Source: Halobacillus kuroshimensis DSM 18393
Lineage (GTDB): Bacteria > Bacillota > Bacilli > Bacillales > Halobacillaceae
Assembly (NCBI RefSeq): GCF_000425705.1
Contig: NZ_AUDY01000008.1
Span: 496,001 to 560,000 of the forward strand
Length of the DNA stretch: 64,000 bases
Reading direction: 5' to 3'
Both the position numbers and the translations under genes were made by a program. The notes under the pieces were generated by a model. That model was given only the letters and a program-made list of their open reading frames with translations. It was not told where the DNA came from and searched no databases. This document shows positions 2,047 to 41,785 of this stretch, in pieces (the stretch's first letter is position 1; every line of letters starts with the position of its first letter).

Positions 2047-3513
2047 TCACTCGATATGGACAATTTTTCCGATGATTTGATTAGCTACGTTTTCTCCACT
2101 GAGAACGACCATCGGGGAACCACCACCGGGATGGGTGCTGCCACCACAGAACCATAAGCCTTTCAAGTCCTGGGATTTGTTGAACGGCCTCATAAATGCC
2201 TGACTTCTGCTGTTGGAGGAAGGGCCGTACAGGGAACCACGATAGGCTCCGAATGCCGCTTCAATTTCCTCCGGGCCGATGACCTTCTCATACACGAGAT
2301 GATCACTGATGGGGATGCCGGCCTTTTTCAGCTTGTCATAGATCAGCTCTTTATAATGGTCCTTATTTTGCGGATGCCCGCCAACGGCTGGGGCATTGAC
2401 GAGAATAAAGCAATTATCCCCTTTAGGAGAAACATCGGGATCTGATTTTGCTGAAGTACAGATATAAATCGTCGGATCGTCGGCATAACCTCCAAGGGAT
2501 AGCTGCCGGAACTCTTTTTTGTAATCACCTGAAAAGAGCAGATGATGGTGGTGAAGCTGAGGAAGATAGGTATCCAGTCCTGCCATGATCACAAAAGCGG
2601 AAATGGAAGGATCATAGGAAGCGAGCTTTTCGTCACTCATTTTTTTCCTTTCTTTCTGATTGATGAGTTCCGGGACTGCCTGGAGCAGATCTCCGTTTAC
2701 GATGACATGATCTGCTTCAAAGAAATCGCCATCCTCTGTTTCGACACCTACTGCACTTCCTTGATACGTATGGATTTTTGATACAGGGGTGCCGCTGTAT
2801 AGATGGACACCGGCTGCTTCTGCTGCTTGAACGAAGGCTTCCGCAATTTTCGTATTTCCGCCTTTCACATAATACACTCCATCATTCCATTCAAGGTGGG
2901 CAATCATACTGAATGTGGCTGGAGCCTGATAAGGATTGGATCCGATATACGTTGAGTACCGGTTCAAGGCCTGAATAATATCAGGATTGGTAAAGTACTG
3001 CCTGAAAAAATGATCCATCGATTGGAGCGGACGTACATTTATCATGCTTTTCATAAGGGCAGGAGACAGATAATCCTTCCATCCGTTGAATGTTCTGTGC
3101 AGGAAATGCTTCCGGGACATATGGTAGAGCCGCTCGATCTCCTTCAGAAACGGTTCATAAGCCTGGTACCCGTTAGGATCAAGCTGCTTCAGCTGTTTTT
3201 TCATAACATCCTGATTGGTGGAAAAATCAAAGGTTGTGCCATTCGGAAAGACATTTCTCGTATGAGTGTCAATCTTTTCAAAGTCGAGAAGATGAGGGGA
3301 GAGTCCAGCTTTCGACAGAACTCTTGTGAAGACTTCCGGCATTGTCATAGTATTGGGGCCAAAGTCGAAGTGATAGCCCTCTTCGTCTACGGCCATCATT
3401 TTGCCTCCAAAATGGCTGTTCTTTTCAAACAATTTCACATCTACGCCTTCACTGGCCAGGTGGACCGCAGCGGAAAGACCACCGAGTCCACCCCCGATAA
3501 TAACTGCTTTCAT
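2047..3513 (-). CDS. Carotenoid desaturase/oxidase of the CrtN/CrtP (phytoene desaturase) family
   Basis: FAD-dependent enzyme of C30 carotenoid synthesis, 488 residues. The N-terminal dinucleotide fold GGGLGGLSAAVHLA (about residues 8-21) and the C-terminal FAD motif GSTHPGGGSPMVVLSGENVANQI-type region are typical of CrtI/CrtN/CrtP. The start at 3513 overlaps the stop of the glycosyltransferase by 4 bases (translational coupling) and is preceded by AAAGGCAGG; a start at 3534 has no site. It is the last gene of a four-gene pigment operon. Desaturation versus terminal methyl oxidation cannot be told from sequence alone, so no symbol is given. crtM (dehydrosqualene synthase) is not in the window. 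Confidence 0.85.
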   Translation of the reverse strand: MKAVIIGGGLGGLSAAVHLASEGVDVKLFEKNSHFGGKMMAVDEEGYHFDFGPNTMTMPEVFTRVLSKAGLSPHLLDFEKIDTHTRNVFPNGTTFDFSTNQDVMKKQLKQLDPNGYQAYEPFLKEIERLYHMSRKHFLHRTFNGWKDYLSPALMKSMINVRPLQSMDHFFRQYFTNPDIIQALNRYSTYIGSNPYQAPATFSMIAHLEWNDGVYYVKGGNTKIAEAFVQAAEAAGVHLYSGTPVSKIHTYQGSAVGVETEDGDFFEADHVIVNGDLLQAVPELINQKERKKMSDEKLASYDPSISAFVIMAGLDTYLPQLHHHHLLFSGDYKKEFRQLSLGGYADDPTIYICTSAKSDPDVSPKGDNCFILVNAPAVGGHPQNKDHYKELIYDKLKKAGIPISDHLVYEKVIGPEEIEAAFGAYRGSLYGPSSNSRSQAFMRPFNKSQDLKGLWFCGGSTHPGGGSPMVVLSGENVANQIIGKIVHIE

Positions 3514-4619
3514 TGATACGACCTGCCTTTCCATTGATAGGTACGTCCTCGTTTATGTACAAGCATGGATGCCCACATCATCGCAATCAGCAGCATTCCT
3601 GCTACAGGCATGAGAAACGACAGCCACAAGGGGTGTCCTGTCCGTGCATCCACATACATTTTGAACGTAATCAGCAATACATAGGGAAGCAGCAGGTAAA
3701 GAGCTCCTGATATCATACCGAAAATGGCAAGACCTCCGGGGAGTACAAAAAGAGTGGCATACAAAAGGGTGAGAAAGACGACCATCCAAGTTGAACGCCC
3801 GATGCCGGTGTATAGGTTTTTTTTAAAGCCTGCCCACGTTTCCTGATTGGATTCATACATATACGAAAGAGCCGATGATGTAATATTGGCAAGGATCATG
3901 CGGTAACCGTTCTTTTTCATTTCACGAGCGAGATGAACATCTTCTACAAGCGATTCCTTTACCGATTCATGGCCTCCGACGGCCTGATAAGCCGATCGTT
4001 CAATCATAATAAAGATGCCGCAGGCTGCTGTAAACATCGGCTTTGTCGTGCGGTTGGCCATGAAAAGTGGAAGGTGAAGCAGCACGACCATATGCTGGAG
4101 AGGGACAAGCATATGGCTGAGGAAATGATGATTCGGATAAAAAGGGAATCCACTGAGCATCGCTGCTTTTCTTTTTTTCATTGTTCCCAGTGTCTTTTCA
4201 ATCACTGTAGGAACGACTCGTGCATCAGCATCCAGGAAAAACAGGTAATCGCCTCCTGCCTTTTTTGAAAGCTGGTGACAGGCGTGTACTTTACCGTTCC
4301 ATCCATCCGGCAGCTCCTTCCCCTGCACAACGGTAAAACGGGCATCCTCCGCAGTAAGAGAGAGCAGCTTTTCATAGGTGCCATCCTCAGAATGATCATC
4401 GAGAAGAAGCATTTCAAGATTCGGATACGTGAGTGATGATAGCGAGCGTATCAATCCTTCCACGTTATCCACTTCATTGCGGAGCGGGACGAGCAGGGAA
4501 ACTTTTTGATCCGCCTCTTCGTGTTTACCTGCCTGCAAGGGATATAGGAATAAACTGTTAACCATTGTCCATACGTTCATGACGACTAAAAGAAGGACAA
4601 AGATAAAAAACCATAGCAA
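3510..4619 (-). CDS. Family 2 glycosyltransferase, likely carotenoid glycosylation (CrtQ-like)
   Basis: Membrane-anchored GT-A fold enzyme of 369 residues. There is an N-terminal helix (residues 1-25), a nucleotide-sugar domain with LLDDHSEDGT and the DxD-type FLDADARV, and two or three C-terminal membrane segments. It probably transfers a sugar from UDP-sugar to a carotenoic acid. TTG 4619 is the start, with AAAGGAGG nine bases upstream. It follows the acyltransferase by 21 bases and overlaps the desaturase by 4. The substrate is inferred from context only. Confidence 0.82.
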   Translation of the reverse strand: MLWFFIFVLLLVVMNVWTMVNSLFLYPLQAGKHEEADQKVSLLVPLRNEVDNVEGLIRSLSSLTYPNLEMLLLDDHSEDGTYEKLLSLTAEDARFTVVQGKELPDGWNGKVHACHQLSKKAGGDYLFFLDADARVVPTVIEKTLGTMKKRKAAMLSGFPFYPNHHFLSHMLVPLQHMVVLLHLPLFMANRTTKPMFTAACGIFIMIERSAYQAVGGHESVKESLVEDVHLAREMKKNGYRMILANITSSALSYMYESNQETWAGFKKNLYTGIGRSTWMVVFLTLLYATLFVLPGGLAIFGMISGALYLLLPYVLLITFKMYVDARTGHPLWLSFLMPVAGMLLIAMMWASMLVHKRGRTYQWKGRSYQ

Positions 4620-4640
4620 TGACGGCAGCCTCCTTTCTGT

Positions 4641-5303
4641 TTAAATGGGGCGGAACAGCTGATGGTTTTCCTGGACGACTCGTGTCCGGAGTTCATCCAG
4701 CTGCTTCGTGGCGGCTGTTTCAAAGTAATGTGTCATAGACTTCCGATTGAGCTCGGAGTACCCCTCCTGTGGAAGAGGCTCTCCGATTGTTATGTAAGCA
4801 TTCGGTTTTCGTTCATGCTCCAGGGCATAATAGATGGAAACAGGCACCACGTTGACGTGTGGGGCTTTTTGAACGATATAACTGATGCCGGAAAAAAACT
4901 CAAGAGGACGTTTTTCCAAAGGCTGTTCCGCCCCCTGGGGGAAAATCCATACCGTTTTTCCTTTAGATAACAGATCGGCACTATAGGAAAGGGATTCCAT
5001 AAGATGCTTCCGGTTGCTGCTGTTGATCGAGAAGGCACCAATGCTCCTGAAAAAGGGGAATTTCTGCAGCCCATCCTCATGCATCATGCCGTACCCGTCG
5101 GAATGGATGACCTGATCATTCAAATAAAAAATGAATAAAGGATCCCACCAGGCGGAATGATTGATGAGAAACATGGTGTTCTCTTTTGGAACCGATTCTG
5201 GAGCATTCAGCAAAATCCGGTTAAAATGTATGTTCAGGAACATCCGGTTGAAACGAGTGAATCCCCATTCGATGACCGGACGTTTATGAGACGGCTTGAA
5301 CAT
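4641..5303 (-). CDS. PlsC-type acyltransferase, likely acylates glycosyl-carotenoid
   Basis: 220-residue 1-acyl-glycerol-3-phosphate acyltransferase-like protein with the catalytic HX4D-type motif NHSAWWDP and the later block WIFPQGAEQP. The start at 5303 has a perfect GGAGG seven bases upstream; the longer frame from 5330 is rejected. It overlaps the 3' end of the CruF-like gene by 20 bases. In staphyloxanthin-type pathways a glycosyl-carotenoid is finally esterified with a fatty acid; this gene is a good candidate for that step here, although it belongs to the PlsC family rather than the staphylococcal CrtO family (inference). Confidence 0.8.
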   Translation of the reverse strand: MFKPSHKRPVIEWGFTRFNRMFLNIHFNRILLNAPESVPKENTMFLINHSAWWDPLFIFYLNDQVIHSDGYGMMHEDGLQKFPFFRSIGAFSINSSNRKHLMESLSYSADLLSKGKTVWIFPQGAEQPLEKRPLEFFSGISYIVQKAPHVNVVPVSIYYALEHERKPNAYITIGEPLPQEGYSELNRKSMTHYFETAATKQLDELRTRVVQENHQLFRPI

Positions 5304-6054
5304 GTTTTTTCCTCCAAAAATAAAGAGCATACCAGCCCGCTGTTAATAGAGCGACAAGCGTAATTGCTAAATACAGTCCCCCGGTAAATGCCATACAGAT
5401 AAATAAGAACACCATCAGCCCGAACACCAAAGCCATTCGTTTCGGCCACGTTCCTTCATTCACCAGGTTATCCGGATTCCAAATCAGGAATACGAGGTGG
5501 AAGAAGGCAGCGGTGACAAACCAGCCGGTGAAATTGCTGAAAGGAATGTCATAATAGAGGCCGGGTTCCTGCCAGATCCAGTATTCTTTTACTTTATAGG
5601 ATACTGGGTCGAGAATAAGATCGATTGTTACGGCGCACAACGCTCCCGTTAAAAGAAACGTAAGGAAGCGGGTGAAGGATGGGAGGCCGCTGGAAATGAC
5701 ACGTGCGATTTCGTGGGAGCACCCGATGATCAAGAGCCAGGCAAACCCAATGGTGACAGGGGTGTCGGCGATCTTTATCCCAAAGTCCTGCGTGTAGTCA
5801 TAGGTTCCGAACAGGAAGTTGTAGGCCACCCCTAAATGCTCGACATAAATACTGGCAGCAATAATGAACAGGCTGTAGAGGATGCCTGTTCTTTTCCCAT
5901 ACATATGTATAAAATACAGTCCGGCGACAATACCGGCAGCAATTAGGAACACACTGTTGGCCCATTCGAGCCAGGGGGGCAGCCAGTCAAAGGTGACCAG
6001 GAATACGCCGCATATGTACCAGAAAATGAAAAAGCGGAAGATATAAGTGGACAT
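5284..6054 (-). CDS. Carotenoid biosynthesis membrane protein, CruF/DUF422 family
   Basis: 256-residue polytopic membrane protein with about seven hydrophobic segments, conserved EHLGVAYNFLFGTYDYT and DLILDPVSYKVKEYWIW, and many aromatic residues, as in the CruF (carotenoid 1',2'-hydratase) family. It is the first gene of the pigment operon; the start at 6054 has GAGGTG seven bases upstream. The reaction in C30 pathways is uncertain: family membership suggests carotenoid hydration or a related end-group change, but the operon context is the stronger argument for a pigment role. Confidence 0.8.
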   Translation of the reverse strand: MSTYIFRFFIFWYICGVFLVTFDWLPPWLEWANSVFLIAAGIVAGLYFIHMYGKRTGILYSLFIIAASIYVEHLGVAYNFLFGTYDYTQDFGIKIADTPVTIGFAWLLIIGCSHEIARVISSGLPSFTRFLTFLLTGALCAVTIDLILDPVSYKVKEYWIWQEPGLYYDIPFSNFTGWFVTAAFFHLVFLIWNPDNLVNEGTWPKRMALVFGLMVFLFICMAFTGGLYLAITLVALLTAGWYALYFWRKKHVQAVS

Positions 6055-7095: not shown

Positions 7096-7146
7096 AAAAA
7101 AGGAAAGCCCGGAAACCTGTAATACAGGTTTCCGGGCTTTCCTTTT
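7096..7146. terminator. Very strong bidirectional terminator after the appendage subunit genes
   Basis: A stem of about 20 bp (AAGGAAAGCCCGGAAACCTG and its complement) around a short AT loop, with A-run and T-run on either side. It ends the minus-strand transcript of 7175-7851 and the plus-strand transcript of 7013-7090. Confidence 0.9.
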
Positions 7147-7174: not shown

Positions 7175-7495
7175 TTAAGCAAGGACACGCTTGTAAAGCG
7201 TGATGCAGTAGGTACCGCTGTCGCCCACAACAGATGTAATGGCAAATGCAGTTGGATTGTTTACGCTAACAGAATCTGTGTTGCCTGGTAATGCTGAGAG
7301 GGCACCGGTTGGTGTGATAGCTCCTGTTACGGGACCTGCACTGGAAGCTGAGTTAAAGATTTGGAAAGTACCAGAAATATAGCTGCCTGCAGGAGCAGTC
7401 CATACTGGATCAGCTAAAACTCCATTGAAATTCCCACAAATTTTTTCCTGAATGATCTGCGCCTGCGGACAGCAGGCCGAATGGGATTGACACAT
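7175..7495 (-). CDS. S-Ena (DUF3992)-type endospore appendage subunit, short form 1
   Basis: 106-residue protein with the features of S-Ena fibre subunits of Bacillus spores. There is a short N-terminal connector with adjacent cysteines (HSACCPQAQ), then IIQEKICGN that starts a beta-sandwich domain, rich in Ser/Thr/Gly/Val, and a terminal Cys strand GTYCITLYKRVLA. In known S-Ena fibres the N-terminal cysteines make disulfide bridges to neighbouring subunits. It lies 23 bases downstream of a close paralogue (7519-7851). AAAGGAG stands ten bases before the ATG. There is no signal peptide, as expected for a protein made in the mother cell. Assignment is by motif and size; no database search was run. 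Confidence 0.78.
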   Translation of the reverse strand: MCQSHSACCPQAQIIQEKICGNFNGVLADPVWTAPAGSYISGTFQIFNSASSAGPVTGAITPTGALSALPGNTDSVSVNNPTAFAITSVVGDSGTYCITLYKRVLA

Positions 7496-7518
7496 ATTTA
7501 ATATTCTCCTTTGTTTTA

Positions 7519-7851
7519 TTAGGCTAAAATACGCTTATACAACGTAATACAGTAAGTCCCGTTTACACCAGCAAGTGCTGTTACCGTGAATGTAGTTGGG
7601 TTATCGACACTCTCAGACTGTGTGTTTCCAGGAGTTACTCCTGCGAAGACAACGTCTCCTGCTACGACAATGTTTCCTGTACTTGATGCTGAATTAAACA
7701 CCTGAAAGGTTCCCGAAATATAACTCCCCGCTGGAGCTGACCAAAGTATGTCTGCTGTTAGAACACCGTTAATGTTCCCACAGATTTCCTCCTGGACGAT
7801 CTGTGCCTGGGGGCAGCACGCGGACACGGAATCCGAGTAGACACCACACAT
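7519..7851 (-). CDS. S-Ena (DUF3992)-type endospore appendage subunit, short form 2
   Basis: 110-residue paralogue of the product of 7175-7495: SVSACCPQAQIVQEEICGN connector, beta-rich body with SAPAGSYISGTFQVFNSASS, and C-terminal GTYCITLYKRILA. I chose ATG 7851, seven bases after GGAGG; the ATG at 7857 is too close. It is the first gene of a two-gene minus-strand unit. The two copies differ mainly in the loop after NSASS, as expected for co-assembling fibre subunits (inference). Confidence 0.78.
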   Translation of the reverse strand: MCGVYSDSVSACCPQAQIVQEEICGNINGVLTADILWSAPAGSYISGTFQVFNSASSTGNIVVAGDVVFAGVTPGNTQSESVDNPTTFTVTALAGVNGTYCITLYKRILA

Positions 7852-7898
7852 ATTCATTCCTCCTTGCAGTCTCAAATTTCGCTTCTACACTATAGTAA

Positions 7899-7907
7899 TA
7901 ATCTATG
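7899..7907 (-). promoter_or_regulatory. Possible sigma-K type -10 element upstream of the appendage gene pair
   Basis: On the minus strand CATAGATTA fits the sigma-K -10 form CATANNNTA about 50 bases before the start at 7851. A well-spaced -35 AC is not obvious, so this is only suggestive. Confidence 0.3.
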
Positions 7908-8038
7908 TCTTTTCGTAGAAACAGCTTGTGTATCCGTCTATGTAGCCTTATCATTCCGTAATTTGGGCCGGTGGTAAAAATAGACAGACACCTATCCGTC
8001 TTTCGCTTCGATTATAGAAGTGAGAGGAGGTGAAAGAC

Positions 8039-8263
8039 ATGGCCGTAACCAACACACGCATGGATTCCCGTCTGCAGCTTGTATTAGCGGTTGGACAGGA
8101 TGAAGATGGAAACATGGTTTACAAGACAAAATCATTTAACAACATAAAAGTCGAAGCAACAGATGAACAGCTTTACCAAACGGCAGCTGCCCTTGCCCCG
8201 CTTCAACAGCACATTATGGAAGAAGTCGCTCGTGATAACCGCTCGATTCTTACTGAAGAATAA
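8039..8263 (+). CDS. DUF1659 family small protein
   Basis: 74-residue protein with NTRMDSRLQLVLAVGQDEDG and KTKSFNNIKVEATDEQLYQTAAAL, the pattern of DUF1659 proteins, which in Bacillaceae are usually followed by a DUF2922 gene and a YvrJ gene, as here. The start is ATG 8039 after GGAGG; GTG 8030 overlaps that site. No biochemical role is established. It is the first of a three-gene set. Confidence 0.8.
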   Translation: MAVTNTRMDSRLQLVLAVGQDEDGNMVYKTKSFNNIKVEATDEQLYQTAAALAPLQQHIMEEVARDNRSILTEE

Positions 8264-8281
8264 TGACAGGGAGGTCAAATG

Positions 8282-8494
8282 ATGAAAAAGCTGGAGCTCA
8301 AATTTTTAAATGAAGAAAGCAGAACAGTGACGATCAGTCTGGATGATCCTGTAGAACCGGTGGATCCGGCAGTCGTGAACGCTGCGATGGATGAAATTCT
8401 TGTTCAGGACTGCTTCACATCGACAGGCGGAAGTCTTGTTTCAAAAAAAGAAGCCCGTATTGTGGAACGCAACGTCTTTGATATTACGCTGTAA
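8282..8494 (+). CDS. DUF2922 family small protein
   Basis: 70-residue protein starting KKLELKFLNEESRTVTISLDDP, with the conserved pattern of DUF2922, and ending EARIVERNVFDITL. It starts six bases after GGGAGGT (8282; the adjacent ATG 8279 is also possible), 18 bases after the DUF1659 gene. Function unknown. A hairpin follows before the YvrJ gene. Confidence 0.8.
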   Translation: MKKLELKFLNEESRTVTISLDDPVEPVDPAVVNAAMDEILVQDCFTSTGGSLVSKKEARIVERNVFDITL

Positions 8495-8500
8495 ATGAGG

Positions 8501-8533
8501 AAAGCCGCCCACGGAATGCGGGCGGTTTTTTTT
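8501..8533 (+). terminator. Terminator after the DUF2922 gene
   Basis: GCCGCCC/GGGCGG stem followed by eight T, located inside the three-gene set, so it may reduce read-through to the YvrJ gene. Confidence 0.75.
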
Positions 8534-8553
8534 ATCAAAGGAGGGTGCCGATC

Positions 8554-8697
8554 TTGGACACTTGGATATCCATTATAGCGGACGTCGGCTTTCCTGTTGC
8601 GGTGACATTTTACCTGCTTCACCGGATTGAAGGAAAGCTTGACCAGCTCATTGAAACGATGCATCAGTGGCCGGAAAAGCTGATCAATCAAAAATAA
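8554..8697 (+). CDS. YvrJ family membrane protein
   Basis: 47-residue protein starting at TTG 8554, nine bases after AAAGGAGG. It has the YvrJ layout: one N-terminal helix (WISIIADVGFPVAVTFYLL) and an amphipathic tail HRIEGKLDQLIETMHQW. YvrJ proteins commonly follow DUF1659/DUF2922 genes in Bacillaceae. Short length and the TTG start make it easy to miss. Function unknown. Confidence 0.8.
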   Translation: MDTWISIIADVGFPVAVTFYLLHRIEGKLDQLIETMHQWPEKLINQK

Positions 8698-8732
8698 AAA
8701 ACATCCAGCCTTTATGGCTGGATGTTTTTTTA
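8698..8732. terminator. Terminator shared by the YvrJ gene and lepB
   Basis: AACATCCAGCC/GGCTGGATGTT stem with flanking A and T runs, between the converging genes; it touches the lepB stop. Confidence 0.85.
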
Positions 8733-9251
8733 ATTGGTTAGACCCCATTGATTGAATGGATAGATGACCAGTTCTGTGCGGCCGATGATTTCCTCTTCTT
8801 CAATAAAGCCGAGACCATTACGGCTGTCTTTACTGATGGAGCGGTTGTCACCCATAACGAAATATTTTCCGTCTGGAACATCGACAGGACCATAGTCTCT
8901 CGTGGCGGAAGCAGCATCTTCACTCAAATATTCCTGTGTTTGCTTCTCCCCGTTGACATAAAGCTCGTGGTCCCGGATCTCGATGGTATCCCCAGGCTGA
9001 CCGATGATTCGTTTCACATAACTTTTAACAGGACGTTCAATGATAACGATATCTCCACGCTCAGGTTCATCTATATAGTAGATAATTTTATTGAACATGA
9101 CTCGTTCACCGTTTTGGAGAGTAGGATCCATACTGGCACCCTCTACGATAGACGTGGCGAAGAAGAACGTTCTTAGAATGAAGGCCAGTGTGATGGCAAC
9201 AGCAATGGCTTTCAACCATTCCAACCATTCATTTTTAGATTGTTCAGACAA
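8730..9251 (-). CDS. lepB: Signal peptidase I (type S26)
   Basis: Membrane-bound serine protease that removes signal peptides from exported proteins; 173 residues from TTG 9251 (AAAGGAAG eight bases upstream; ATG 9257 would be too close to it). One N-terminal anchor helix (about residues 10-30), catalytic Ser in EGASMDPTL, catalytic Lys in SYVKRIIGQPGDT, and box E VMGDNRSISKDSR. Size and single anchor match the Bacillus SipS/SipT/SipU type. It lies among spore-surface genes but is probably housekeeping. Confidence 0.93.
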   Translation of the reverse strand: MSEQSKNEWLEWLKAIAVAITLAFILRTFFFATSIVEGASMDPTLQNGERVMFNKIIYYIDEPERGDIVIIERPVKSYVKRIIGQPGDTIEIRDHELYVNGEKQTQEYLSEDAASATRDYGPVDVPDGKYFVMGDNRSISKDSRNGLGFIEEEEIIGRTELVIYPFNQWGLTN

Positions 9252-9383
9252 TCTCATCTTCCTTTCTCGATGAACAGATATGATTTCGCTCTTATTTTAC
9301 CATATTGGTTTAGAAATGAAAGGGAGATCGATTTCAATGTAATGGATATGTAACATAGGAAAGTGGAAATCATCGTCTTACTA

Positions 9384-9390
9384 TGTCGAA
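9384..9390 (+). promoter_or_regulatory. Possible Spo0A box (0A box)
   Basis: TGTCGAA matches the 0A box TGNCGAA. It lies in the intergenic region between lepB and the Spo0E-like gene, 154 bases before the latter's start. A seven-base match alone is weak; the context gives it interest. Confidence 0.3.
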
Positions 9391-9543
9391 TTGTAAATTG
9401 TTTTAGCATATATCTTTACAAAAGGAATGAAAATTGAGATAATTCTTTTCGTGCAGGTTGGACAGGCGAACAAACATTCCTTTTGCTTACGTATATGAAA
9501 GAGATAAAGACAAAAAGATAGGACTGGCAGGAGGTCGTCGCAC

Positions 9544-9702
9544 GTGCAGGTCATGGATAAAGAGACGATGCTGGAAGAGATTGAGCACCTTCGTAAACGA
9601 ATGATGGAGGTCGCCAATGAAAAGGGATTCTCCAGTGTGGAATCGGTTCAAATTAGTCAACGGCTGGATACATTACTCAACGAGATTCAACATAAATCAT
9701 AA
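9544..9702 (+). CDS. Spo0E-like aspartyl-phosphate phosphatase
   Basis: 52-residue protein of the Spo0E/YisI/YnzD family, small helical-hairpin phosphatases that dephosphorylate Spo0A~P and so delay sporulation. The signature is the central SVESVQISQRLDTLLNEI (family pattern SXXXSXXLD). GTG 9544 is eight bases after GGAGGT; ATG 9553 is an alternative. It is monocistronic, followed directly by a terminator. Confidence 0.82.
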   Translation: MQVMDKETMLEEIEHLRKRMMEVANEKGFSSVESVQISQRLDTLLNEIQHKS

Positions 9703-9737
9703 AACTTACAGAGCTTACTGTTCTGTAAGTTTTTTTA
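9702..9737 (+). terminator. Terminator of the Spo0E-like gene
   Basis: AACTTACAGA/TCTGTAAGTT stem, eight-base loop, then seven T. Confidence 0.85.
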
Positions 9738-9782
9738 TGTAGCTGCTCTTAGAAAGGATGTAAGTTTTAAGCAAAGAGCAGA

Positions 9783-10646
9783 TCAGTTATTTTCTGCTTG
9801 ATTGGGACAGGAAATAGAGTCGCTCGGAGGGCGGGGCTCACATTCCTGAGCAGTGACAGCAATGGTAGCAGGGTAAATCACTTTTACGGACTGGCAGATA
9901 TCAATCAGCATTTCCAGGCAGAGGCAGTGTTTGATTTTCGTAATCATTTGAACGCTGCAGGTGAATCGGGTCACTTCACATTGGATACTCGTGCCGGGCG
10001 GGGCACAGAGGAGCAGCTTTTCTATTTGCGAAAAGGCACACACACATACACATCCATTAGGGAGTTTGACACCGAGACAGCCTTCTTTACATAAAGTAAC
10101 TTCATGAAGGATAAACGTTTCACCAGAAGGCAGAAGAACTGGGACTTCTTTTCTCTGTCCAATTTCCCTGCATACAATAGAGGTAAGATCGGATTTCCTG
10201 CAGCACCCATCCGTTAAAAAGCAGGTGTAGCATTCACAATCAAGGGGCAGTTCTTCCTGACCTTGAGGTAGGATGTAGTTTAAATCCAGGCAGTATTTTC
10301 CTTTTAAAATTCCATCGCCTGTACGGACAACTTCAATATTTTGGAAGCCTCGAACGGTTCTGCTGAATGTTTTCCCTGTACCACTATTTATTTTTTCTCC
10401 ATTAATGAAAATAGAAAGATCGCTTAAATCTCCCTGCTTAAGGGTGAGGACAATGGTTCCTGTGACAGGCTCAGCCAACAGTGACTGCCATAGCAGCTCA
10501 CGGGAGTCGTTCGTCAAAGTAAAATTCCCGCAGACTTCATCCATGAGAACATCATCAACAAACGAAATGGTTAAGCATTTCGTAAATTGAAGCGGTGCGG
10601 TTACCCAATCATACACTTTTTCTGTTTGTATACAATGCTTATCCAT
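9783..10646 (-). CDS. KVYDWV-type spore-surface protein with embedded Ena-like domain
   Basis: 287-residue Cys-rich protein. Residues 4-14 carry CIQTEKVYDWV. Residues about 28-130 resemble the product of 11589-11978: VCGNFTL near the start, a Trp-Gln-Ser strand, FQNIEVVRTGDG and GKYCLDLNY at the end. Then comes a Cys-rich linker (DCECYTCFLTDGCC) and a C-terminal domain whose motifs LLLCAPPGTS, ICQSVKVIYPATI and ECEPRPP recur in the 41114-41785 protein. ATG 10646 follows AAAGGGGGGG; the longer frame from 10688 is rejected. It is the last gene of a three-gene minus-strand set. A spore-surface location is inferred from the Cys content, lack of signal peptide and neighbours; a role as base or anchor of the appendage is speculation. 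Confidence 0.7.
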   Translation of the reverse strand: MDKHCIQTEKVYDWVTAPLQFTKCLTISFVDDVLMDEVCGNFTLTNDSRELLWQSLLAEPVTGTIVLTLKQGDLSDLSIFINGEKINSGTGKTFSRTVRGFQNIEVVRTGDGILKGKYCLDLNYILPQGQEELPLDCECYTCFLTDGCCRKSDLTSIVCREIGQRKEVPVLLPSGETFILHEVTLCKEGCLGVKLPNGCVCVCAFSQIEKLLLCAPPGTSIQCEVTRFTCSVQMITKIKHCLCLEMLIDICQSVKVIYPATIAVTAQECEPRPPSDSISCPNQAENN

Positions 10647-10763
10647 AAGATCCCCCCCTTTAGAATAGTAGCCGGCACCTGCAAACATTCATGCTGGTCC
10701 CTCTTTTTTATCATTCGTAGCAAAAGCCCCTCCATCTTCGTTCTGCAGGGTAACCATAACGGA

Positions 10764-11504
10764 TCAAGGACAGATCGGTTTCACGGGTTCCGGATCTTCG
10801 CATCCGGTGATCCGCAGATTATCTAAAAAAGCGGCCGTGTTAAACACCCGGTCAATGACATCAGCCACTCTGATCTGTAGGGTGATCAGTTCACAGCTGT
10901 AGCAGGATAGGTCAAGCTCTGCTGTGTAAATTTCGGTAGTCACAGCGTTGTACGTAACATCATTTGGTGTAGGGAAAGGAGGAAGAGGAGCCATGGAACT
11001 CCCATTCGGCATATTGGAAAACGGCGCAGCATTCGTAACTGTGACAGGACTTCCGTCTGGGAGCAGGGCAATATTTTCTGTGCCGAGAGAAGTGAAGACA
11101 TCCGCCCGGAAATAGTCGGCAAATTGTCCGACAAACTCCGGGTTTTCCTCGGTCCCGAATTTCCAGTCGAATGTCAGCTTGCCGGGGTCCTTCGGCAGAA
11201 GGAATTGAAGCCTGACGGTGACAACATCAAGAGACTCCTGTCCGTCCGGGGAACCTAAGGGGTCTCCGGCGGGAACGATGGGGCCGCCTGTGTTTTCAGA
11301 AACAAAAGTAGGAGCCGTTCCCGGAGTCAGGCTGGCAAAACCACTGCTTAAAACAACAAATTCATTTCCATCTGTCGGAAATCCCTGCAGTGGTGTGGAA
11401 AAAATCTCACTTTGAACAGAAGGGCCCGTCAACGTTGCATTTACTAAACAGCACTGTGTTAAAGGAGTGACCAGCGCTTCGACAATTTCATCAATCGTGG
11501 CCAT
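10764..11504 (-). CDS. Choice-of-anchor L-like protein in the appendage locus
   Basis: 246-residue protein with no signal peptide and few Lys. After an N-terminal helix and adjacent cysteines (TPLTQCCLVNATL) there is a beta-sandwich with SSGFASLTPGTAP and LTFDWKFGTEENPEFVGQFADYFRADVF-type sequence, resembling the choice-of-anchor L domain found in secreted or surface proteins. The end is DNLRITGCEDPEP. The N-terminal CC resembles the connector of Ena subunits, which suggests it could cap or attach to the fibre (inference). It lies between an Ena subunit gene and the KVYDWV-Ena fusion gene. Confidence 0.65.
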   Translation of the reverse strand: MATIDEIVEALVTPLTQCCLVNATLTGPSVQSEIFSTPLQGFPTDGNEFVVLSSGFASLTPGTAPTFVSENTGGPIVPAGDPLGSPDGQESLDVVTVRLQFLLPKDPGKLTFDWKFGTEENPEFVGQFADYFRADVFTSLGTENIALLPDGSPVTVTNAAPFSNMPNGSSMAPLPPFPTPNDVTYNAVTTEIYTAELDLSCYSCELITLQIRVADVIDRVFNTAAFLDNLRITGCEDPEPVKPICP

Positions 11505-11546
11505 ATAGGCACACCACCTTTCAAAATGGACCAGCCTCTAATCGTA

Positions 11547-11581
11547 AAATAAAAAGGCAGGAAAGTATAAGGAATCCTGCC
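11547..11581 (-). terminator. Intra-operon terminator between Ena subunit and partner genes
   Basis: Read on the minus strand, GGCAGGA / TCCTGCC stem followed by TTTTTATTTT, 8 bases after the stop of 11589-11978. It may leave the subunit mRNA in excess over the downstream genes. Confidence 0.7.
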
Positions 11582-11588
11582 CCGCTGT

Positions 11589-11978
11589 TTATAATCGATA
11601 ATTCGCGCTGATGCAGTATTTTCCACGGCATGAGTTTCCTGCTGCCGCATCTGTATTACATATAATCCGGACTTCGTCAAAAGTCTGCACCGTTACCGAT
11701 CTTGTATTCCCGTTACTTCCAAGGCTGGCTAGAGGGACAGTGAAGGTGTCAACAACTACGCCTCCATTTGCTACATAGACGGTTAGGGGGTTGGCACAGC
11801 CGGTATCATAAAAGACGCTGACTGTACCTGCATCAATGGTGAAACTTGACGACCAGACCGTTTCAGCTAGATCAAAGGCCGGGGCTGTCGTATCTGTTAA
11901 ACAATCAATGGTGAAGTTTCCGCAGAACTCATCCATAGCAAATTGACCACCGCGGTCGGGACAACAACAATTCGCCAT
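11589..11978 (-). CDS. S-Ena (DUF3992)-type endospore appendage subunit, long form
   Basis: 129-residue protein: N-terminal ANCCCPDRGG connector with three cysteines, DEFCGNFTI start of the beta-sandwich, TRSVTVQTFDEVRIICN, and final strand GKYCISANYRL. Layout (Cys connector, FCGNFT, FDEVRI, terminal Cys strand) fits S-Ena fibre subunits such as Ena1A/Ena1B of the Bacillus cereus group (recalled, not searched). ATG 11978 follows GGAGG by seven bases. First gene of a three-gene set, followed at once by a terminator, consistent with a major structural component. Confidence 0.78.
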   Translation of the reverse strand: MANCCCPDRGGQFAMDEFCGNFTIDCLTDTTAPAFDLAETVWSSSFTIDAGTVSVFYDTGCANPLTVYVANGGVVVDTFTVPLASLGSNGNTRSVTVQTFDEVRIICNTDAAAGNSCRGKYCISANYRL

Positions 11979-41073: not shown

Positions 41074-41113
41074 CGAATGAAAGAAAAATCTTATTCGGAG
41101 GTGTTTGCTAACC

Positions 41114-41785
41114 ATGCAAGCAAAAAATCTTAATGGGGGCCAGGAGCTCCTATGTATCAACACAACAAAAGTTTATGACTGGGTAATCAATGAGGCTTCG
41201 TTTGATTTAACAATCGGAGACTTTGAGCTTCCCGTCGGTCCTTCAGGAGAACAGCTTGAGTGTGAGGACATTGAAGAAGTCATCTGTACAGTAGAGCCGC
41301 GTGAAACCGATCCGATTGAAATCGTCGGACGCGTAGATCAGGAGCTTGTCGTTGACGGAACGCTGTTGACGCTTCAGCTTGTAAACATCCGTAAATACTT
41401 TACGGTAACCATTGCTGTAGAATTGACAGCAGAAAATGGTGGGGCAGTTGTAGAAGTAGGAGAAGCTGACTTTGTCCGCTGTGAGCAGGTACTATTGTGT
41501 GCGCCGGAAGGAACAGACGTCGAGGTTACTTATACAGATCTTGACTGTTTTGTTTGTAACTTCACGTGTGAAGAAAATGGCACAGCTGGAGATTCCCTTG
41601 ATGACATCACGGTATCCGTCCGTCTCTGCCAAAGTATCCAATCCACATTTCCAGTAACGCTTGAGCTTATCGCTGAGTTCTGTGAGCCGCGTGACTTGCT
41701 TCCAATCCCGCCTTGCCCGGCTCCAACACTGCCACCACAGTGTCCGGTATTGTTCCCAACGGCTGACGATGGTGATAATGCGTAA
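41114..41785 (+). CDS. KVYDWV-type spore-surface protein (no Ena domain)
   Basis: 223-residue acidic protein. Near the start CINTTKVYDWVINEASF; then an acidic beta-rich region (EDIEEVICTVEPRETDP, VVDGTLLTLQLVNIRKYF), and a C-terminal domain with LLCAPEGTDVEVTYTDLDC, LCQSIQSTFPVTL and EFCEPRDLLP, all paralogous to 9783-10646, which has an extra Ena-like domain. The tail is Pro-rich (PCPAPTLPPQCPV). ATG 41114 is ten bases after GGAGGTG. No signal peptide; with the sigma-K promoter it is probably deposited on the spore from the mother cell (inference). Confidence 0.72.
   Translation: MQAKNLNGGQELLCINTTKVYDWVINEASFDLTIGDFELPVGPSGEQLECEDIEEVICTVEPRETDPIEIVGRVDQELVVDGTLLTLQLVNIRKYFTVTIAVELTAENGGAVVEVGEADFVRCEQVLLCAPEGTDVEVTYTDLDCFVCNFTCEENGTAGDSLDDITVSVRLCQSIQSTFPVTLELIAEFCEPRDLLPIPPCPAPTLPPQCPVLFPTADDGDNA

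Follow-up and report, generated by a model that had tools for sequence, protein, structure and literature searches.

A locus on contig NZ_AUDY01000008.1 of Halobacillus kuroshimensis DSM 18393 encodes three plain subunits of the Ena family, known from endospore appendages (ENA), together with a protein in which an Ena domain is inserted into a coat protein of the BMQ_0737 family. On balance, we favour the view that this locus makes and attaches an endospore appendage and that the fused protein (9783-10646) is its spore-proximal anchor. The analysed stretch of 64,000 nucleotides (positions 496,001 to 560,000 of the contig) is referred to as the window. The original prediction, made from the sequence alone, had placed here five minus-strand genes, i.e., three plain subunits falling into two kinds, plus two unusual partners, one fused and one of the choice-of-anchor type, and both the genes and their division were found as described:

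7175..7495 (-), plain Ena subunit a: 106 amino acids (aa), C-terminus GTYCITLYKRVLA, 40.4 bits against PF13157
7519..7851 (-), plain Ena subunit b: 110 aa, C-terminus GTYCITLYKRILA, 46.7 bits against PF13157
9783..10646 (-), BMQ_0737-family coat protein with inserted Ena domain, candidate fibre anchor: 287 aa
10764..11504 (-), choice-of-anchor L protein, candidate tip protein: 246 aa, leaderless, 65.5 bits against NF038133 (cut-off 27)
11589..11978 (-), plain Ena subunit c: 129 aa, C-terminus GKYCISANYRL

The genes are arranged in two groups, the first of ena c, the choice-of-anchor L gene and the fused gene, the second, past a signal peptidase gene, of ena b and ena a. Four of the five exceed the curated cut-off (22 bits) of the PF13157 profile (Enas/DUF3992), with 40.4, 46.7, 58.7 and 76.2 bits, and the Pfam search gave no PF13157 match in the choice-of-anchor L protein (10764-11504). 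At E ≤ 0.001 the genome itself (G000) yields four matches to Enas, and none lies outside this locus. The reading as an ENA-type locus of a halophilic relative of the Bacillaceae is supported.

Architecture of the fused protein

The fused protein matches NF052457, the model of the BMQ_0737 family, with 96.9-97.2 bits (cut-off 71) and PF13157 with about 58.7-58.8 bits. Two separate pieces of the BMQ_0737 profile (2-24 and 45-187) match, one on either side of the Ena domain, so that the latter is inserted and not joined end to end. The fusion claimed before is thus real, and it is refined to an insertion within a coat-protein family, which lay beyond a view of the sequence alone:

10566..10634 (-), N-terminal strand of the BMQ_0737 module: profile 2-24, G000:C1:506566-506634, E 4.9e-4
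10275..10550 (-), inserted Ena domain: profile 11-110; the two acceptor positions are occupied by Cys39 and Cys119 (numbering of the whole protein)
9798..10226 (-), core of the BMQ_0737 module: profile 45-187, G000:C1:505798-506226, E 4.2e-22

The N-terminal KVYDW strand and the core match the NCBIfam model of BMQ_0737 of Priestia (Bacillus) megaterium, whereas in the stand-alone members of this family about 20 residues take the place of the roughly 100-residue Ena domain. In B. megaterium, BMQ_0737 has been counted among the outermost proteins of the spore (PMC4656864). In Ena1B, as described in PMC8619143, connector cysteines of one subunit link to Cys24/Cys109 and in this way join the turns of the fibre; the inserted domain of the window protein is without connector and keeps both of these acceptor cysteines. 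The ratio of nonsynonymous to synonymous substitution rates (dN/dS) of the two halves, 0.17 and 0.14, indicates purifying selection. No CotZ match was found in the fused protein at E ≤ 1, and its Ena domain is internal, which sets it apart from ExsL; the proline (Pro)- and cysteine-rich N-terminal linker of the Ena1C type is also absent, the KVYDW strand standing in its place.

Further proteins of the BMQ_0737 type were observed at L063:3034-4344 (+), L064:2508-4586 (-) and L065:3178-4515 (+), where the order, as judged by eye, appears circularly permuted, with the core first, then the KVYDW strand and then immunoglobulin-like repeats, and this order may indicate that neighbouring proteins of the coat layer exchange strands. 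BMQ_0737 domains also occur in open frames of 3127 and 3197 residues (G008:C1:833478-833876 and G015:C1:1706411-1706803). One may ask if these are giant spore-surface proteins.

Distribution and linkage of the fused type

Profile A1, built from five fused proteins, was searched over its full length at E ≤ 1e-20 in 397 genomes of the order. Full-length relatives of the fused protein were found at no fewer than 24 places in at least 22 of these genomes, over 13 family codes; five of the 24 places are A1's own rows, and the six best candidates per genome were scored, so that the count is a lower bound. One further full-length copy is present in G066, another genus of the family. For comparison, any Enas match at all was found in 80 of the 397 genomes. 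When 398 genomes were drawn from the whole class, all full-length fused matches (G000, G161 and G162) came from the same order. The closest named relative is found in Halobacillus litoralis (NZ_WMEW01000013.1; 87% identity in the best segment).

Alignment A4 comprises 24 fused proteins, i.e., those of 22 of the 25 places (excluding G323, G337 and G394) and the divergent L155 and L156, which come from loci fetched for their Ena hits. All 24 match NF052457 (E ≤ 0.001) and 23 match PF13157, and the A4 profile, when compared to the sequences of the PDB, matched the four structures of Ena proteins at E 1.7e-5 to 0.0086, without any other match below E 0.1. A plain ena gene is located no more than 3 kb away in 22 of the 25 fused copies, and in 10 of the 25 a fused and an ena gene form a divergent pair, 184-264 bp apart; in G394 a further Ena match falls within the reading frame of the fused gene itself and is left out of this count. 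A stand-alone BMQ_0737 gene is present in the fetched stretch of four of the 25 copies, besides the window's own, which is 30 kb from the locus:

41105..41785 (+), stand-alone BMQ_0737-family protein without Ena domain: 200.6 bits against NF052457

That BMQ_0737 substitutes for a missing CotZ was considered and rejected, since G000 has three CotZ matches and 41 of the 44 family genomes have at least one. Tandem arrays of Ena-domain genes were seen in two other genomes of the order, eight genes in L164:4914-8915 and nine in L168:1312-7045.

Within the same genus, G014 has all five genes in identical order. Compared to the second genome, dN/dS is 0.15 for a, 0.13 for b, 0.17 for the fused gene, 0.04 for the choice-of-anchor L gene and 0.07 for c.

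Plain subunits and type of the putative fibre

All three plain subunits carry adjacent cysteines in an N-terminal connector together with the equivalents of Cys24 and Cys109, and the fold of subunit c matches the jelly-roll of solved Ena subunits. The tree of Ena domains (105 columns, several long branches) places a and b with relatives in a starred clade of their own (6 rows), while c joins the L166 pair, labelled Ena1A/B-like by inference, only in a larger unstarred group (93/85). In this tree none of the three falls into the starred 12-row clade of the L166 pair, and none into the starred 9-row Ena3A-like clade. As for the S-Ena assignment of the original prediction, membership in the Ena family and the S-ENA cysteine signature hold for all three plain subunits; the label 'S-type' is owed to the signature and is tentative.

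Could all these be ordinary proteins of the coat or exosporium layers, with the Ena fold as a disulfide-linked lattice module, without any fibre, and with the fused gene encoding just a two-domain coat protein? We consider this unlikely. The literature searched gave no fibre for Halobacillus, the clade of a and b is their own and some relatives have whole arrays of Ena genes (8 in L164, 9 in L168), all of which would suit such layers; however, the plain subunits carry the connector cysteines and both acceptors, that is, the residues linking fibre turns in Ena1B, and genes of the fused type keep close company with plain ena genes and in other genomes stand beside Ena3A-like and BclA_C genes.

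Proposed mechanism of attachment

The connectors of S-ENA fibres are described as pointing toward the spore, and Ena1C as a nonameric ring that forms no fibre and needs Cys142, the counterpart of Cys109 of Ena1B (PMC12921279). Because the connectors face the spore and Ena1C needs Cys142, a protein at the fibre base must be able to hold on to the spore and must have acceptors but no connector. Given the outermost location of BMQ_0737 and this residue pattern, we infer that the fused protein lies in the BMQ_0737 layer, where it would offer an Ena base ring.

From the domain make-up, the insertion site, the linkage and the residues observed, the following steps can be proposed. Subunits a, b and c, which are members of the family by sequence, would polymerise through Ena-type contacts, and by analogy to Ena1B the connector cysteines of one subunit would bond to the Cys24/Cys109 equivalents in the turn below. 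The BMQ_0737 module would assemble into the outer coat layer, perhaps with the stand-alone BMQ_0737 protein of the genome, and the inserted Ena domain, connectorless and with both acceptors, would form the base ring that takes the connectors of the first turn, in a manner comparable to the proposal for Ena1C. Lastly, in what is the weakest step, the choice-of-anchor L protein might plug into the distal end of the fibre as its tip. Genes of this kind are likely to be expressed late in the mother cell, under sigma-K. The pattern AC-N14..18-CATA-N2..3-TA, which we take as the sigma-K consensus, is present upstream of 12 of 49 ena-locus genes, where 100 simulations gave 2.28 on average and at most 8; upstream of the window's five genes the full pattern was found in none, and gene 7519-7851 has CATAGATTA 56 bases upstream.

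The fused protein could instead be a minor component of the fibre or its distal cap, which seems to us quite improbable. A connectorless inserted domain would also suit a subunit that ends the chain; however, as the S-ENA connector faces the spore, a connectorless and acceptor-bearing subunit fits the spore-side end, and BMQ_0737 is a coat family.

Several observations weigh against the role of the fused protein as an anchor. The structural model of the fused protein, based on a two-row alignment, has a predicted local distance difference test (pLDDT) score of 36, i.e., it is not usable. The fused copy of G342 has no other Ena match in its 14.4-kb contig, and that of G234 has weak Ena matches only from 3.8 kb onward. 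In A4 the Cys24 equivalent is a cysteine in 19 of 24 proteins, and the Cys109 equivalent in just five, among them the window's copy, which keeps both acceptors; 18 of the 24 have, instead or additionally, a cysteine five residues before the latter position. The rule that the Ena1C-type acceptor (Cys109/142) is always kept in fused proteins was accordingly rejected. In L138 an adjacent cysteine pair stands just before the Ena domain; the other 23 of the 24 have none there. Finally, for the Ena domains of 26 fused rows (the 24 of A4, L151 with a weak BMQ_0737 match and L154, which has no BMQ_0737 match with the profile built for this analysis and was judged fused by eye; G009, G323, G337 and G394 excluded) a single clade is rejected by the approximately unbiased (AU) test (p-AU 0.0067).

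For the BMQ_0737 cores, a comparison of 25 fused with 21 stand-alone rows requires two changes, of which at least one is forced, and is compatible with one origin of the fused type. One ancient fusion behind all copies would suit the cores, but it would be harder to fit to the Ena domains, rejected as a clade. In the Ena tree the plain subunits of L132, L137, L142 and L143 nest beside the fused Ena domains of their own lineage. An exchange between anchor and partner is possible and would explain the results for cores and Ena domains; repeated insertion at one site is possible as well.

The choice-of-anchor L protein

ENA fibres are described as ending in collagen-like tip fibrils (PMC11952670). 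That the choice-of-anchor L protein is the tip of the fibre is a guess, which we hold to be doubtful. The somewhat likelier account is that it stands outside the appendage, as a chance neighbour or a separate coat protein. Its family occurs in 2 of the 44 family genomes and in 7 of the 397 genomes of the order, and only in two closely related Halobacillus genomes does it lie beside ena genes; a general link of this family with ena genes was therefore rejected (2 of 7 genomes, 397 searched). Moreover, G006, G013 and G021 have ena genes and neither a choice-of-anchor L nor a BclA_C gene. These distributions speak against a tip function. In its favour, an ena gene and the candidate anchor gene flank this gene in both genomes; neither genome gave a BclA_C match, and the gene is strongly conserved (dN/dS 0.04). 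The leaderless protein has cysteines at positions 18, 19, 201, 204, 235 and 245 and starts almost at its domain, near the cysteine pair; in three relatives encoded away from ena loci the N-terminal region is long (by eye, leader-like in two) and the site of the pair has no cysteine.

Neighbourhood of the locus

The region has nine terminator-like sites compared to 4.9 expected, the longest hairpin being the one that lies 3′ of subunit a:

7100..7144 (-), terminator-like hairpin 3′ of subunit a: 20 pairs, then a T-run

A small open reading frame of 52 aa (window 9544-9702, +) is convergent with the fused gene, and the version of the relative has 81 aa (L054:8946-9191); its SQRLD motif is presumably Spo0E-like. 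The genes downstream of the locus (window 2047-6054, -) we take, from their open reading frames, to be carotenoid-pathway-like, with a desaturase, a glycosyltransferase, an acyltransferase and a membrane protein.

Comparison with known ENA systems

The locus resembles the S-ENA genes ena1A-ena1B-ena1C of the Bacillus cereus group, as presented in PMC12921279, by having several plain subunits with a connector cysteine pair and both acceptors, and a further Ena-domain protein that lacks such a connector and keeps the Cys109/142 counterpart. Unlike Ena1C, with its Pro/Cys-rich N-terminal linker, this further protein carries its Ena domain inside a named coat family. When ena1C is deleted in B. 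paranthracis, the fibres are free and no longer attached to the spore. As predicted, the layout differs from the simple ena1A-ena1B-ena1C order, with the fused and choice-of-anchor L partners, two gene groups and a and b in another clade.

In L-ENA, the anchor is likewise an Ena-type domain on a spore-layer protein: ExsL is composed of a CotZ domain and a C-terminal DUF3992 domain, and in B. paranthracis exsL is located upstream of l-bclA and ena3A (PMC12921279). However, the layer part of the window protein is BMQ_0737 and not CotZ, its Ena domain is inserted and not C-terminal, and the window subunits lie outside the Ena3A-like clade. F-Anchor of F-ENA, described as a collagen stalk or CsxA-like part with DUF4183 (PMC11952670), also has a fibre-type head domain on a spore-surface protein, although the fibre family (DUF4183) is unrelated and the spore-binding parts are other ones. 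The principle of a fibre-type domain on a spore-binding part is therefore already known from ExsL and F-Anchor. No description of an Ena-BMQ_0737 fusion was recognised in the literature searched, a weak negative, as the search did not reach all main ENA papers.

Different spore-binding parts are met at ena loci of the relatives. G009, G066 and G012 (second locus) combine a BMQ_0737+Ena protein with neighbouring Ena3A-like and BclA_C genes. A CotZ-like+Ena protein adjoins an Ena3A-like gene in L162 and L163, with CotZ scores of 34.0 and 21.7 bits, respectively, against a cut-off of 24, and L163 also has a collagen gene whose end is BclA_C-like by a profile built for this analysis. G021, of the same genus, has subunits similar in kind to those of the window, but with an Ena1C-like protein carrying a Pro/Cys linker (L059). 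Thus, three spore-binding parts accompany similar fibre genes. Two observations stand beside these. The gene for the Ena-BMQ_0737 protein of G009 is split over two open reading frames (L056:8720-9446, -) beside the Ena3A-like and BclA_C genes. At L158:5361-5954 (+) and L159:5164-5754 (-) an Ena domain is followed by a Cys/His-rich tail, with a plain ena gene adjacent, and this is perhaps a fourth kind of anchor.

In our reading, the fused protein represents a third class of ENA anchor, one that occurs together with subunits of S-like as well as L-like kind. A broader idea, to which we give an even chance, is that the roots of these fibres are exchangeable: a single Ena-type receiving domain would have been joined to three or more different spore-binding parts (Pro/Cys linker, CotZ and BMQ_0737), and the BMQ_0737 form, with the receiving domain within a coat morphogenetic protein, would be a widespread and so far unnamed anchor class of the order, serving S-like and L-like subunits, while here the choice-of-anchor L protein would have taken over the tip from BclA-type proteins.

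The coat receptor of Ena1C, through which S-ENA attach, is called as yet unidentified in the 2026 paper on Ena1C (PMC12921279). With a receiving Ena domain and a coat-layer family in one polypeptide, in at least 22 of 397 genomes of the order, the layer of attachment can be named and tested. The locus extends ENA-type loci to a halophile, may offer a scaffold for display on the spores of a harmless organism, and suggests that anchors evolve by swapping of spore-binding parts.

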